64,000 nt of DNA, taken from the NCBI RefSeq assembly GCF_000478275.1, contig NZ_ASJB01000086.1, positions 1 to 64,000 on the forward strand. The letters run 5' to 3'. Below are positions 2,549 through 45,588 of this stretch, in pieces. This DNA comes from Amycolatopsis orientalis DSM 40040 = KCTC 9412. GTDB lineage: Bacteria; Actinomycetota; Actinomycetes; Mycobacteriales; Pseudonocardiaceae. The position numbers and the translations under genes are program-made. Numbering within the stretch: the stretch's first letter is position 1; each line of letters opens with the position of its first letter. The notes under the pieces are model-generated. The model was given only the letters and a program-made list of their open reading frames with translations. It was not told the DNA's origin and searched no databases.

Positions 2549-3514
2549 TTAATTCGGGGACGGGAGTACGACGTCCTCGGGTGCCTTGTCCGCCCGCAAC
2601 CCCCGCCACGTCGTATGCCGCAGCCGCCCGTCCGGGGTCCAGTTCCGGTGCACGACCTCGCCGACCAGCTCCGGCGACACCCAGCGCACGCCCCGGGCCC
2701 GGTCGCGCGGGACCTCCGAGTCGAACGGCGGCTTCTTCCTGGCCAGCGGGGCGAGCCGGGTGTGCAGGTCTTCGAGGACCTTTTCGCTGAACCCGGTCCC
2801 CACGTCGCCGATGTACCGCAGCTCGCCGGATTCGTCGTGCGCCCCCAGCAACAGGGCCCCGAGCGTCCCCGAACGACGTCCTTCGCCGGGCCGCCAGCCG
2901 CCGATCACGACCTCTTGGGTGTGCCACAGCGCCCGTTTGATCCATTGCCGCGTGCGCTTACCGGGGTAATAACGGCTGTCGAGCTTCTTCGCGACCAGCC
3001 CTTCGAGGCCGTGCTGCCGGACGACTTCGAGGAGCTGATCAGGCGAGATGTCGTCGTCGGTGTAGCCCGGTGGGATGACCAGACGGCCACCCGGCGTCAC
3101 GGAGGCGAGCAGTTCCCGCCGGGCACTGTAAGGCTCGTCGAGGAGGACGGTGCCGTCGAGAAGCAGCACGTCGAAAGCGAAGAAATGCACCGGGCTGCGC
3201 TCCAGCAGCGACGCGTCCGGCGTGCGGAGGTGCCGTGTCTGCAGCAACGGGAAACTCGGCCGTCCCTGGTCGTCGAGGACCACTATCTCGCCGTCGAGGA
3301 CGGCTTCGCGGCCGTCGAGGGCGTCGCCGGTGACGTCCGGGTACGTCGCGGTGATGTCGAGGCCGCGACGGCTGGTCAGGCGCGTCTCACCGTCGCGGGC
3401 GACGCGCAGGCAGCAGCGGTAGCCGTCCCATTTGTATTCGTACCCCCACCCGCCGGTGGGCAGGTCACCGTCGGTCGCCAGCATCGGGGCGATCGCGTCC
3501 GGCACGGTACTCAT
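2549..3514 (-). CDS. ATP-dependent DNA ligase (LigD ligase-domain type)
   Basis: Seals DNA nicks and ends using ATP; probably the sealing enzyme of bacterial non-homologous end joining. The 321-residue protein shows the nucleotidyltransferase motifs in order: EYKWDGYR with adenylated Lys28, LDGEI (73-77), FFAFDVLLLDG (111-121), EGLVAKK (171-177) and WIK (191-193). An OB-fold domain follows (about 200-315). It corresponds to the ligase domain of LigD encoded as a separate gene. The divergent neighbour is the matching polymerase domain, and their starts are less than 50 bases apart, which suggests shared control. No Ku gene is in this window. Confidence 0.92.
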   Translation of the reverse strand: MSTVPDAIAPMLATDGDLPTGGWGYEYKWDGYRCCLRVARDGETRLTSRRGLDITATYPDVTGDALDGREAVLDGEIVVLDDQGRPSFPLLQTRHLRTPDASLLERSPVHFFAFDVLLLDGTVLLDEPYSARRELLASVTPGGRLVIPPGYTDDDISPDQLLEVVRQHGLEGLVAKKLDSRYYPGKRTRQWIKRALWHTQEVVIGGWRPGEGRRSGTLGALLLGAHDESGELRYIGDVGTGFSEKVLEDLHTRLAPLARKKPPFDSEVPRDRARGVRWVSPELVGEVVHRNWTPDGRLRHTTWRGLRADKAPEDVVLPSPN

Positions 3515-3560
3515 GCCTCACGGTACCCCGGAAACGCCGCCGGTGATCTATCGTCGAGGG

Positions 3561-4478
3561 GTGCCTGAAGAGCGGATAACGGTCGAGGTCGAGGGACGGC
3601 GGCTGGGGCTGTCCAATCTGGACAAGGTGCTCTACCCGGCGCACGGTTTCACCAAACGCGAGGTCCTCGACTACTACCGTCGCATCGCCCCCGCCATGCT
3701 CCCGCATCTACGCGACCGCGCCGCCACGTTCCGCCGGTTCCCGGACGGCGTCGACGGCGAACCGTTCTACGAGAAGAACGTTTCCCGGCACGCGCCCGAG
3801 TGGGTGCGCACCGCGCGGCTGACCAACCGCGGCCGCCGGGGCGGGGAGGAGACGCTCGACTACCCGGTGGTCGGCGACCTCCCGACACTGATGTGGGCGG
3901 CCAATCTCGCCGCGCTGGAGCTGCATGTTCCACAGTGGACGGTCGGCCCGCGCGGCGCTCGGAAATCACCCGATCTGCTGGTGTTCGATCTCGACCCCGG
4001 TCCGCCCGCGGACGTCGTCGACTGCTGCCGGGTCGCCGAGACGCTCAGCGAACTGCTCACCGACGACGGCTTGACGGTGTACGCGAAGACCAGTGGCAAC
4101 AAGGGAATGCAGCTGTACTGCCCGGTGCGCACCCGGTCCGACGAACGCACTTCCGAGTACGCCAAGGCGGTCGCGGAGGAACTCGCGCGCCGGTCACCGG
4201 AAAGCGTGGTCGCCCGGATGACGAAGGCGATCCGCCCCGGCCGGGTGTTCATCGATTGGAGCCAGAACAACACCGCCAAGACCACCATCGCGCCCTATTC
4301 CCTGCGCGGGCGCGCCATCCCGACCGTGTCCACCCCGGTGACCTGGGAGGAGGTCGAGGCCTGCCGGAAGGCGGCCGATCTGTTGTTCACCGCCGAGCAG
4401 GTGATCGAACGTGTCGAGGAACTGGGTGACCTGTTCGGGGACATGGCCGAGCACCGCGCGCCCGTGCCCGTCCGGTGA
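3561..4478 (+). CDS. LigD-type primase-polymerase (NHEJ polymerase domain)
   Basis: A 305-residue archaeo-eukaryotic-primase-like polymerase that fills gaps and extends ends during NHEJ. It has the metal-binding FDLDPG motif (Asp143, Asp145), the TSGNKGMQLY motif (about 177-186) and a third acidic residue in VFIDWSQN (Asp232). Length fits a stand-alone LigD_N polymerase domain. The GTG at 3561 gives the family-typical N-terminus (PEERITVEVEGRRL), but GAGGG is immediately adjacent. An ATG at 3513 in the same frame, overlapping the divergent ligase start, is the alternative. It forms a functional pair with the ligase. Confidence 0.9.
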   Translation: MPEERITVEVEGRRLGLSNLDKVLYPAHGFTKREVLDYYRRIAPAMLPHLRDRAATFRRFPDGVDGEPFYEKNVSRHAPEWVRTARLTNRGRRGGEETLDYPVVGDLPTLMWAANLAALELHVPQWTVGPRGARKSPDLLVFDLDPGPPADVVDCCRVAETLSELLTDDGLTVYAKTSGNKGMQLYCPVRTRSDERTSEYAKAVAEELARRSPESVVARMTKAIRPGRVFIDWSQNNTAKTTIAPYSLRGRAIPTVSTPVTWEEVEACRKAADLLFTAEQVIERVEELGDLFGDMAEHRAPVPVR

Positions 4479-43048: not shown

Positions 43049-43238
43049 GGAGAAGAAATGTCCTTTCCAGCTCGGCGGGGACCGTTCGCGCTGCTGAGCG
43101 CGTCAGGACTCCCCGCGGATTCGAAACACCCAACTTCATGTGGACGCGGGGTCGCGCGCATGTGACACGTCTTGTAACACACGTGCACTTTGGGGCTGAT
43201 CTGTGGTCGACTATGCCTGCACCGGTGGAGGTGGTCGA

Positions 43239-43964
43239 GTGCCAGACCGACAACCCATCCCCCTCGGCGTCCCGAGCCAAGCCTTGGCCGGACAGGCGCC
43301 GGAGGTCGTGTTGCGCGCTCATCCGGGAGGTGCCCCCTCGCACGGGGCTCCACTCGGCGGGCCGGGAACGCGGCCAGGGGGTGTTGCCCGCCCGCCCGGA
43401 CAGCGTAGAGGGCGGGACCCGTCGACTTCGGCGGTACCCACGGCGACTTCGTGGGGCCGCAGACGGGTATTGCTGTTGAACGCCACGTTCGAGCCGCTCA
43501 CGGCGCTGCCGTTGCGGCGCGCGGTGGTCCTGGTGATGTGCGGCAAGGCCGAGGTGGTGCACGGCGACCCCGGAGGGCTCGAACTGCACGCCGCCACGGT
43601 CTCGCTGCCCGTGCCCTCGGTGATCCGGCTGAGCACCTACGTGCGCGTGCCCTACCGCGCGCAGGTGCCGCTGACCCGGGCCGGGCTGATGCACCGCGAC
43701 CGGTACCGCTGCGCCTACTGCGGGGGGCGGGCCGAGACGATCGACCACGTCGTCCCGCGCAGCCGTGGTGGTCCCCACAGCTGGACGAACTGCGTGGCCT
43801 GCTGCGCCAAGTGCAACCACCGTAAGGCGGACAAGCTGCTGTCCGAGATCGGCTGGCGCCTGCGCGTCGTGCCGAGGGCCCCGCACGGCCCGCACTGGCG
43901 GCTGCTCGCCCATTCCAAGGAGGCCGACCCGTTGTGGCGGCCGTACCTGGGAACCGCGGCCTGA
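43239..43964 (+). CDS. HNH endonuclease
   Basis: A 241-residue protein. About the first 75 residues are Gly/Pro/Arg-rich and probably disordered; the rest is the conserved core (RRVLLLNATFEPLTALPLRR). The HNH motif is intact: CAYCGGRAETIDHVVPRSRGG, then WTNCVACCAKCNHRKADK, with two CxxC pairs for structural zinc. GGAGG ends 7 bases before the GTG at 43239, which decides the start; a GTG at 43203 lacks a site. It matches Rv2469c in position and is widely conserved in actinobacteria, with biological role unsettled. Confidence 0.87.
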   Translation: MPDRQPIPLGVPSQALAGQAPEVVLRAHPGGAPSHGAPLGGPGTRPGGVARPPGQRRGRDPSTSAVPTATSWGRRRVLLLNATFEPLTALPLRRAVVLVMCGKAEVVHGDPGGLELHAATVSLPVPSVIRLSTYVRVPYRAQVPLTRAGLMHRDRYRCAYCGGRAETIDHVVPRSRGGPHSWTNCVACCAKCNHRKADKLLSEIGWRLRVVPRAPHGPHWRLLAHSKEADPLWRPYLGTAA

Positions 43965-44124
43965 CCGGGGTTCTGAACGCAGGTTTTCCGCGAACACGTC
44001 GGCGCCCCGGCTGCCTTTCGGCGGCCGGGGCGAGCCGATGATGCCGTGATACTGCTCGGTACCGCTACAAGTACGCAATCCCCTACTGCCGCGTCACTCG
44101 CCGTCCAGCCGGTAATACCCGGGC

Positions 44125-44478
44125 TCAGGCGGCCAGCGAGAAGTCGTTCTGGCAGGTGACGCGGGTGCCCCGGGTGACACGCGTGCCGCGGGTGACACGA
44201 GTGCCGCAGGTGACGCGGGTTCCGGCCGTCACGCGGGTGCCGCGAGTGACGCGCGTGCCACGGGTGACACGAGTGCCGGCGGTGACGCGGGTGCCCCGGG
44301 TCACCCGGGTGCCGCGCGTGACGCGGGTACCGGCGGTGACGCGGGTACCGCGAGTGACACGAGTACCGCGAGTAACCCGTGTGCCCGCCGTCACACGCGT
44401 ACCGGGGATGAATTCAGTTTCGAAGAGTGACGAAATGTCGTCGATGATCGCCTGGCCGGGTGTCTGGGTGCTCTGCAT
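44125..44478 (-). CDS. Fourteen-fold GTRVTx hexapeptide-repeat protein, uncharacterised
   Basis: A 117-residue protein: a 25-residue leader-like N-terminus (QAIIDDISSLFETEF), fourteen perfect GTRVT[A/R/C] hexapeptides (26-109), and the tail QNDFSLAA. The variable sixth residue follows A-R-R repeated (ARR ARR ARR ACR RC), an 18-residue super-period. GGAGG lies 7 bases before the ATG, so it looks translated. Synonymous codons vary freely between repeats while the protein is invariant, which argues for selection on the peptide. Spacing of V and the small T four residues later fits the left-handed beta-helix hexad, three hexads per coil. A multi-core modified-peptide precursor is the other idea, but no maturase is adjacent. 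Located between HNH and ctaJ. I do not recognise the family. Confidence 0.75.
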   Translation of the reverse strand: MQSTQTPGQAIIDDISSLFETEFIPGTRVTAGTRVTRGTRVTRGTRVTAGTRVTRGTRVTRGTRVTAGTRVTRGTRVTRGTRVTAGTRVTCGTRVTRGTRVTRGTRVTCQNDFSLAA

Positions 44479-44778
44479 GACATATCCTCCTGCGACCGGT
44501 GCGTTACCTGCTGGGGTGGGGGAGCTGGGCGCAAGGCCCGTACAGGTGAAAAAGCTACGAGGATTTCAAGGCGGCGACAAGACGACAGCGCCGGGTGCGG
44601 CCGCCCGTACGTTGAGTTGCAACCTTTCGGCCTTGCGGGCTTCGGCTCAACGTGGGAGCGCTTTCGCGGCAAGCGGCGGACGGCCCCCCTCGGACGGCGA
44701 GCGGTCGGTGGCGCGGACCACGTCACGCGACCGGGTGCGGCACGGCGTTCCGGACCCGGGTCGGATACGCTCACGCGC
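44479..44778. other. 300-base divergent intergenic region
   Basis: Separates the repeat-protein gene (minus) from ctaJ (plus) and should contain both promoters. I see no long hairpin, RNA gene or further ORF with a ribosome site. Confidence 0.45.
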
Positions 44779-45042
44779 GTGAACCTTGTCGAGACGATCC
44801 TGGTCTTCGCGGTGATCCCCTTGGTCATCTACGCGCTTTGCGGGGTGGCCACGCTGCGGTCGAAGGGCGCGGGCGTCGCCCGGTACCGGCCGGGGCAGCC
44901 GTGGGAGTACCCGGCCATGTGGTGGAGCGCCAACCCCGACGGTGTCGGCGCCAGGCATTCGCACGCGAACGTGGGCGGCGCGACCGCCGTCGGTGCGACG
45001 GATGGAGCTTCGGTGACGGGAGGCGCTCGTGGCAACTGGTGA
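44779..45042 (+). CDS. ctaJ: Small single-span membrane protein, CtaJ-like aa3 oxidase subunit
   Basis: An 87-residue protein with one N-terminal membrane helix (VETILVFAVIPLVIYALCGVA), then RYRPGQPWEYPAMWWSANP, the segment conserved in actinobacterial CtaJ, and a flexible Gly/Ala tail. CtaJ is an accessory subunit of the cytochrome aa3 oxidase in the III2-IV2 respiratory supercomplex of mycobacteria. The downstream DUF5130 gene overlaps by 14 bases; its mycobacterial homologue was named PRSAF1 in the same supercomplex. The GTG start is inferred from the family N-terminus. Confidence 0.72.
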   Translation: MNLVETILVFAVIPLVIYALCGVATLRSKGAGVARYRPGQPWEYPAMWWSANPDGVGARHSHANVGGATAVGATDGASVTGGARGNW

Positions 45043-45535: not shown

Positions 45536-45588
45536 GTTATGAACGGGACTTTCACTGCAAAATTTGCAATGAAAGTCCCGTTCATAAC
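45536..45588. terminator. Family D palindrome (core GCAAAATTTGC), 26-base arms
   Basis: Arms 45536-45561 and 45563-45588 pair with a single mismatch around one central base. It lies between convergent stops (45511 and 45598) and probably terminates both. A relative with the same core and layout is at 52153-52207. Confidence 0.8.

Follow-up and report, generated by a model that had tools for sequence, protein, structure and literature searches.

The gene described here encodes fourteen copies of a GTRVTx hexapeptide and lies within 64,000 nucleotides (nt) of DNA from Amycolatopsis orientalis DSM 40040 = KCTC 9412 (NZ_ASJB01000086.1, positions 1-64,000; hereafter the window), where it occupies 44125..44478 on the reverse strand, from ATG to stop, and specifies a protein of 117 amino acids. 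It belongs to a family of arrays which share a genomic slot but not a peptide, and selection on these arrays acts on the protein. The sequences show that each copy is kept individually in the protein, that the rungs of GTRVT arrays come in twos or threes and that many members carry an ssrA-like tail. What we infer beyond this is the fold, what the tail does and the role as a multivalent scaffold, and we tentatively favor, at somewhat less than even confidence, the reading that the product is a short-lived multivalent beta-strand array.

The gene has retained its position in most of the genera sampled from one family, which includes many antibiotic producers, and is accompanied by promoter-like and ribosome-site signals. 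Its evolution is unusual in that five residues are fixed in every copy, while GTRVT arrays approach saturation at their synonymous sites and the peptide is switched in entire arrays between lineages. What keeps repeats identical, be it the fold, a partner or self-pairing, could be tested here on a natural case. Within the searches made, no family model, solved structure or paper was found that describes the gene as a whole; no paper on such a protein stood among the full-text matches listed, whose coverage lies mostly outside subscription journals.

Selection on the repeated peptide

A previous sequence-only reading of this DNA had counted fourteen GTRVTx repeats in residues 26-109 (44152..44403, reverse strand) and proposed that the peptide, rather than a satellite, is under selection. 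The count is confirmed by the translation of the open reading frame (ORF), and the proposal is borne out by the codon data of 116 arrays with 1943 cores (copies of the repeated pentapeptide). Repeated loci had been dropped from this set (L002, the second window locus, L054, L089, L091-L093, L095 and L097); L096, dropped like the match G699 discussed below, and 80 named-genome loci stand outside its counts, and the GVRIE array L218 and 12 further loci of the host genus are absent from all its statistics. In every case the codon pattern of the core lies in the frame of the ORF (1943/1943), and on the coding strand it was found neither in another frame nor within 600 nt outside the ORF. In the 12 further genomes of the genus, which include previously unread ones with an internal stop in the listed sense-strand match at the locus, every core likewise lies in one open frame and none beyond the stop codon. 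Homologues in relatives and frame-breaking changes had both been suggested as points to check: homologues with an intact frame are present in the host genus and family, and no out-of-frame core occurs in the 116 arrays or the 12 further genomes.

At the same time, the cores differ widely in their codons. The mean codon mismatch between two cores of the window array is 0.598, and two cores of one GTRVT array differ by 0.551, compared with 0.559 for random GTRVT cores. Set against the expectation from host codon usage, the mismatch seen is 0.582 versus 0.574 in 38 arrays of the genus, 0.551 versus 0.589 in all 84 GTRVT arrays, 0.442 versus 0.497 in SVRIT arrays and 0.389 versus 0.553 in GVRIS arrays, which indicates that GTRVT arrays are old, with each copy held on its own, and that GVRIS arrays are younger or less free. 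Adjacent GTRVT cores have identical DNA in 22 of 1366 cases, and all six Arg codons occur (AGG and AGA together in 135 of 1450 GTRVT cores). Ser is encoded by TCN 93 times and AGY 18 times in SVRIT cores, and by AGY 196 times and TCN 43 times in GVRIS cores. The codons chosen in cores also depart from those of the host: the core Val codon of the 84 GTRVT arrays is GTC at a frequency of 0.75, compared with 0.35 in the neighbouring genes of the hosts. A function at the DNA level was considered and rejected. The third bases of the core are weakly coupled, all ten pairs lying above 200 shuffles, with a mutual information of 0.015 to 0.068 bits and a complementarity excess of at most 0.037; this coupling is ascribed, without proof, to the kinship of the arrays.

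A shared slot with changing peptides

The gene had been described as inserted between an HNH gene and ctaJ within an otherwise conserved block, and the comparison of loci agrees. In the window, the HNH gene (43203-43964, forward strand; HNH scores below the NCBIfam cut-offs) is convergent with the array gene, and ctaJ (44779-45042, forward strand; NCBIfam CtaJ 96.2 bits, cut-off 43) is divergent from it. All 80 genomes searched in the host genus match (weakest best E 7.2e-19). Among the 95 relatives found in a scan of named genomes, the best 80 are mostly Amycolatopsis, together with Prauserella, Saccharomonospora, Kibdelosporangium, Actinokineospora, Actinophytocola and others; Amycolatopsis thailandensis is the closest relative among the matches listed, which may omit records lying very close to the window. 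A search of 297 genomes of the host family gave matches in 181 at E 0.001, the weakest possibly by chance. At E 1e-12, matches were obtained in 32 of 298 genomes of an order sample and 3 of 296 of a class sample, all of them within the host family, one false match excepted; the class-level match G699 was rejected because its GTRVPT repeat is located elsewhere, without an HNH neighbour. These order and class searches used the GTRVT protein, so that other core types outside the family would escape them.

HNH-adjacent DNA was also taken from genomes with a weak match or none (59 times, one genome twice), and the HNH match was present in 57 of the 59. In 39 of the 46 sampled genera of the family, the slot beside the HNH gene carries an array in at least one of the genomes read, three of these genera (g35, g19, g40) being counted for a remnant of two to four cores. 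In five genera (g3, g4, g28, g36, g37), the HNH match is followed after only about 280-375 nt by the next conserved gene, which we take to be of the DUF5130 type, a distance too short for ctaJ and an array; two (g5, g42) were placed in neither group. Outside the family but within the same order, loci L125, L227 and L231 lack an array, the gap there measuring about 250-390 nt, and L129, L229, L230 and L235, where the presumed DUF5130 gene was not found, were not judged. Array and HNH gene are on opposite strands in 115 of the 116 cases; in the remaining one, L078, the contig ends first.

Ten core types are distributed by lineage, namely GTRVT, GVRIS, SVRIT, GVRIH, GTRIT, GVRVT, GVRVN, GVRIN, GIRVT and GVRIE (L218), and the non-GTRVT arrays occupy the same slot on the same strand. 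In all ten, position 3 is Arg, position 2 is Thr, Val or Ile and position 4 is Val or Ile, and position 5 varies, with Ser, His, Asn or Glu among its residues; the core-counting script required Arg, and separate scans sought any repeated 4-mer or 5-mer. The repeats are pure, with 1450 GTRVT cores against 25 one-substitution neighbours, and number from 2 to 60 per array, small arrays holding two (L228), three (L101) or four cores (L123). The hexad that is fixed in the window does not hold as a general rule, as gaps between exact cores range from 1 to 35 residues, some of them containing a decayed core, and other genera are mostly at 8-9-residue spacing. On a tree of 58 HNH proteins, in which L218 was still labelled 'none', the core labels need 14 parsimony changes (minimum 9, shuffled mean 33.2). 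One GVRVT array (L100) falls inside a supported GTRVT clade (98/80), where its branching relative to a GTRVT member from its own genus is unresolved. The array has a codon mismatch of just 0.267 and units that repeat in larger blocks, both of which fit a shrinkage followed by regrowth.

Linker periodicity and similarity to beta repeats

Across the 14 units of the window array the linker residue x follows the order A R R A R R A R R A C R R C, an A-R-R cycle broken only by C in units 11 and 14. The 18-residue super-period that had been read from this cycle is real in GTRVT arrays: at lag 3 (18 residues) linkers agree in 468 of 692 comparisons (0.676) over the 84 arrays, above the maximum of 300 shuffles (0.527), although these arrays are related and hence not independent for this test. 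Arg linkers occur nearly always in runs of one or two, and runs of at least three were seen 12 times compared with 84.8 expected from shuffles, which supports a beta-solenoid with two or three strands per turn.

Profile searches return scattered similarities. The window protein passes no Pfam or NCBIfam family cut-off (best NCBIfam score 24 bits, cut-off 207), eight relatives pass no NCBIfam cut-off, and matches to LpxD and CcmN profiles remain below theirs (CcmN 40.5 versus 100 for L108). An SVRIT array (L106) exceeds the Pfam cut-offs for DUF2345 (61.2 versus 30.7), DUF3540 and ChapFlgA, a GTRIT array (L108) exceeds that for DUF6799, and one GVRIS array reaches 28.1 bits for DUF2345, below the cut-off of 30.7; since the models passed by L106 and L108 disagree, we read them as similarity of beta repeats. 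The best E values in a sequence search of the PDB are 0.011 and 0.022, and a Foldseek structure search returned nothing at E 0.001 or better.

C-terminal tails and possible turnover

The window protein ends in CQNDFSLAA (residues 109-117; 44128..44154, reverse strand), which resembles the genome's own transfer-messenger RNA (tmRNA) tag AEPKSQREFALAA, five of nine residues being identical to SQREFALAA. Of the 116 arrays, 66 end in AA and 48 in LAA; among the window's 312 six-frame ORFs of at least 100 amino acids, most of which are not genes, AA is the ending of 7 and LAA of 1, the latter being the array itself. With LAA and upstream similarity to the tag, the tail of the window protein qualifies as ssrA-like by resemblance, and LAA, at 48 of 116, does not extend to the whole family. 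The LAA ending is seen with GTRVT, GVRVT, SVRIT, GVRIH, GTRIT and GVRIS cores, many of the 48 arrays being closely related and not amounting to 48 events, and many other members end one or two residues past the last core. The tmRNA-like tails suggest turnover by ClpXP; C-terminal Ala-Ala was shown to make sigmaAntA of Streptomyces a ClpXP substrate (PMC7142297).

Lys is nearly absent from the array proteins (0.21%, compared with 2.39% in two neighbour proteins), and 95 of the 116 contain none, where about 30 would be expected. Pupylation needs Lys, and its avoidance may therefore matter for turnover. As a separate observation, the tmRNA of one genome (G028, locus L245) has an unusually long predicted tag of 21 residues.

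Leader and upstream signals

The N-terminal leader (residues 1-25; 44404..44478, reverse strand) carries a loosely conserved TPxQA motif, a loose pattern of which matches 63 of the 116 array proteins, a count without control. A crude hydropathy scan found no strongly hydrophobic segment in it (top 12-mer 1.78, compared with 2.6 in L205, described below).

Upstream of the gene, the strong ribosome site previously noted is present as AGGAGG at 44486..44491 (reverse strand, as are the following elements), with 7 nt between it and the ATG, and a loosely defined Shine-Dalgarno-like site occurs in 114 of the 116 arrays. Farther upstream, a conserved block, TTTCACCTGTACGG (44538..44551), the sole exact copy in the genome, lies directly 3' of a predicted -10 element (TAGCTT, 44552..44557), which is preceded, across a 17-nt spacer, by a predicted -35 element (TTGTCG, 44575..44580), both as read from the sequence. 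CACCTGTA or a variant occurs within 160 nt upstream of 106 of the 116 array starts (shuffled control 16/2320) and stands 67-72 nt ahead of the ATG in 103 arrays; a TTGnnn-N16..18-TAnnnT pair, for which there is no control, directly precedes the block in 105 of the 106. The ten arrays that lack the block comprise all three GVRIH, all three GTRIT, one GIRVT, 2 of 14 GVRIS and 1 of 84 GTRVT arrays. An RNA element was considered and rejected: no Rfam match exceeds its gathering score in 43900-44900, and folding is not in excess in the 5' leaders of a subset of 41 arrays out of the 106 that bear the block (mean z 0.12, mononucleotide shuffles), so that the block seems closer to promoter DNA than to a riboswitch. 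A regulon was likewise not found, as the lone one-mismatch copy of the block lies inside a coding gene, presumably purK, and no co-regulated gene emerged.

Neighbouring genes and occurrence beyond the locus

Five neighbours were scanned, comprising MscS-like, HNH-like, CtaJ and PepN proteins and one without a match, and none of them matched a secretion family. For anti-phage defence, three scanned proteins gave 0 PADLOC families at E 0.01. A link to defence, phage or plasmid systems was rejected, as no match was confirmed; the BLAST searches among these tests are weakened by low-complexity masking, and PHROGs matches are weak (window protein, E 7.7e-4; L106, E 0.0042). Between a gene of 160 amino acids and pepN lies an inverted repeat (45536-45588) in which 50 of 53 bases equal their own reverse complement and which looks like a terminator, and elsewhere in the window, at 2251-2493, there is a tandem repeat with a unit of about 50 or 95 bases.

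Beyond the locus, two neighbouring exported-looking proteins (1971-2753 and 2961-3608) are encoded in L205 (JALRCA010000207.1), from the metagenome-assembled genome (MAG) Aeromicrobium sp. HQM.2. They carry GTRVT arrays of 12 and 5 cores, directly after a signal-like N-terminus; a crystallin match below threshold lies in the C-terminal part of the first, and the second has no Pfam match. In 197 genomes sampled around L205, only its own matches were obtained at E 1e-8. The GTRVT core in such a protein means that GTRVT arrays are not tied to the HNH-adjacent locus.

Proposed function and alternatives

In the reading we favor, the product would be a cytosolic protein made of many copies of a beta-strand motif, [GS][TVI]R[VI]x, with polar turns or loops connecting them. 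The strands would stack into a beta-solenoid, or between molecules, with positions 2 and 4 packing inside and the invariant Arg making an outer ladder. The regular surface thus formed could serve as a multivalent scaffold or sponge, binding a target that is repetitive or present in many copies, and ClpXP would hold the protein level low via the C-terminal tail. Of the left-handed beta-helix put forward in the sequence-only reading, the beta-solenoid is plausible. As to handedness, AlphaFold2 (AF2) models superpose on left-handed helices only at about 12 Å and reach 2-3 Å on another set of beta-helices, which we take to be right-handed, but AF2 is unreliable on repeats and known to invent solenoids for them (PMC11795689), so that these models count for little.

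An unlikely but serious alternative is a disordered chain, in which each core serves as a linear motif for one partner protein and the whole array followed when the taste of the partner changed. Strictly identical cores beside free and very variable linkers, the wholesale switching of cores between lineages and the placement of the GTRVT arrays on the disordered side (84/84) all agree with it, but the regular grouping in two or three rungs and the beta-branched pattern suggest packing, and no named neighbour suggests a partner. Also unlikely, and slightly more so, is a self-matching code, in which each strand must pair with identical strands of the same chain or of others, and selection would for this reason keep all 2 to 60 copies one pentapeptide. 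If this were true, a lineage could switch code only by way of an array reduced to few copies that then regrows, of which GVRVT inside the GTRVT clade seems an example; the strand polymers of neighbouring lineages should then not mix, and ClpXP would set their amount.

More doubtful is a multi-copy precursor from which ClpXP or another protease would free the cores as lineage-specific peptides, signals or modified peptides. One peptide in numerous copies with variable spacers, the loosely conserved N-terminus, the tmRNA-like tail and the GTRVT cores in the two exported-looking proteins of the Aeromicrobium MAG are in line with this proposal. On the other hand, no single residue flanks the cores throughout, the crude scan gave no strongly hydrophobic N-terminus, and no modification enzyme is found among the named neighbours, a statement that covers the locus and leaves room for an unlinked enzyme.

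It is improbable that Arg and Thr ladders bind a regular ligand such as a polyanion, nucleic acid or ice. The invariant Arg and the charge of GTRVT arrays (median +0.254 per residue) would suit such a role, but SVRIT arrays are near neutral (median -0.030 per residue), Ser, His, Asn or Glu can stand at position 5, and Lys is avoided; binding by net charge, among the functions raised previously, is therefore not supported as a shared role. A satellite or frame coincidence without protein function, to which a tandem repeat of changing copy number might point, is highly improbable in view of the in-frame codon pattern of all 1943 cores, the use of every one of the six Arg codons and of both blocks of Ser codons, and the near-saturation of GTRVT synonymous sites.

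Comparison with known systems

The left-handed beta-helix of hexapeptide transferases and CcmM/CcmN has six-residue rungs, three per 18-residue coil, which GTRVT arrays parallel in the period of their linkers, and such proteins account for sub-threshold profile matches and for the best PDB sequence matches (E 0.011 and up). Unlike them, the array has no catalytic domain, its cores are nearly identical, its spacing in other genera is mostly 8-9 residues, and its profile scores stay under the curated cut-offs. Pentapeptide-repeat proteins such as MfpA and Qnr have the consensus A[DN]LxX, whose absence sets the array apart from these and from right-handed beta-helices; Pfam scans of the window protein and eight relatives found no pentapeptide-repeat family. 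DUF2345, which we take to be the beta-needle of VgrG, is matched over its cut-off by one SVRIT array, but no VgrG domains were found and the match covers short strand repeats.

Multi-core peptide precursors are known from fungal Kex2-type repeats and some ribosomally synthesized and post-translationally modified peptides. The array shares with them the repetition of one peptide with variable spacers, and differs in that no constant cleavage site is seen and the array proteins have no clear signal peptide. Finally, sigmaAntA of Streptomyces is a sigma factor and not a repeat protein, but it resembles the array in bearing C-terminal Ala-Ala on a natural actinobacterial protein, where this ending was shown to be a ClpXP degron (PMC7142297).
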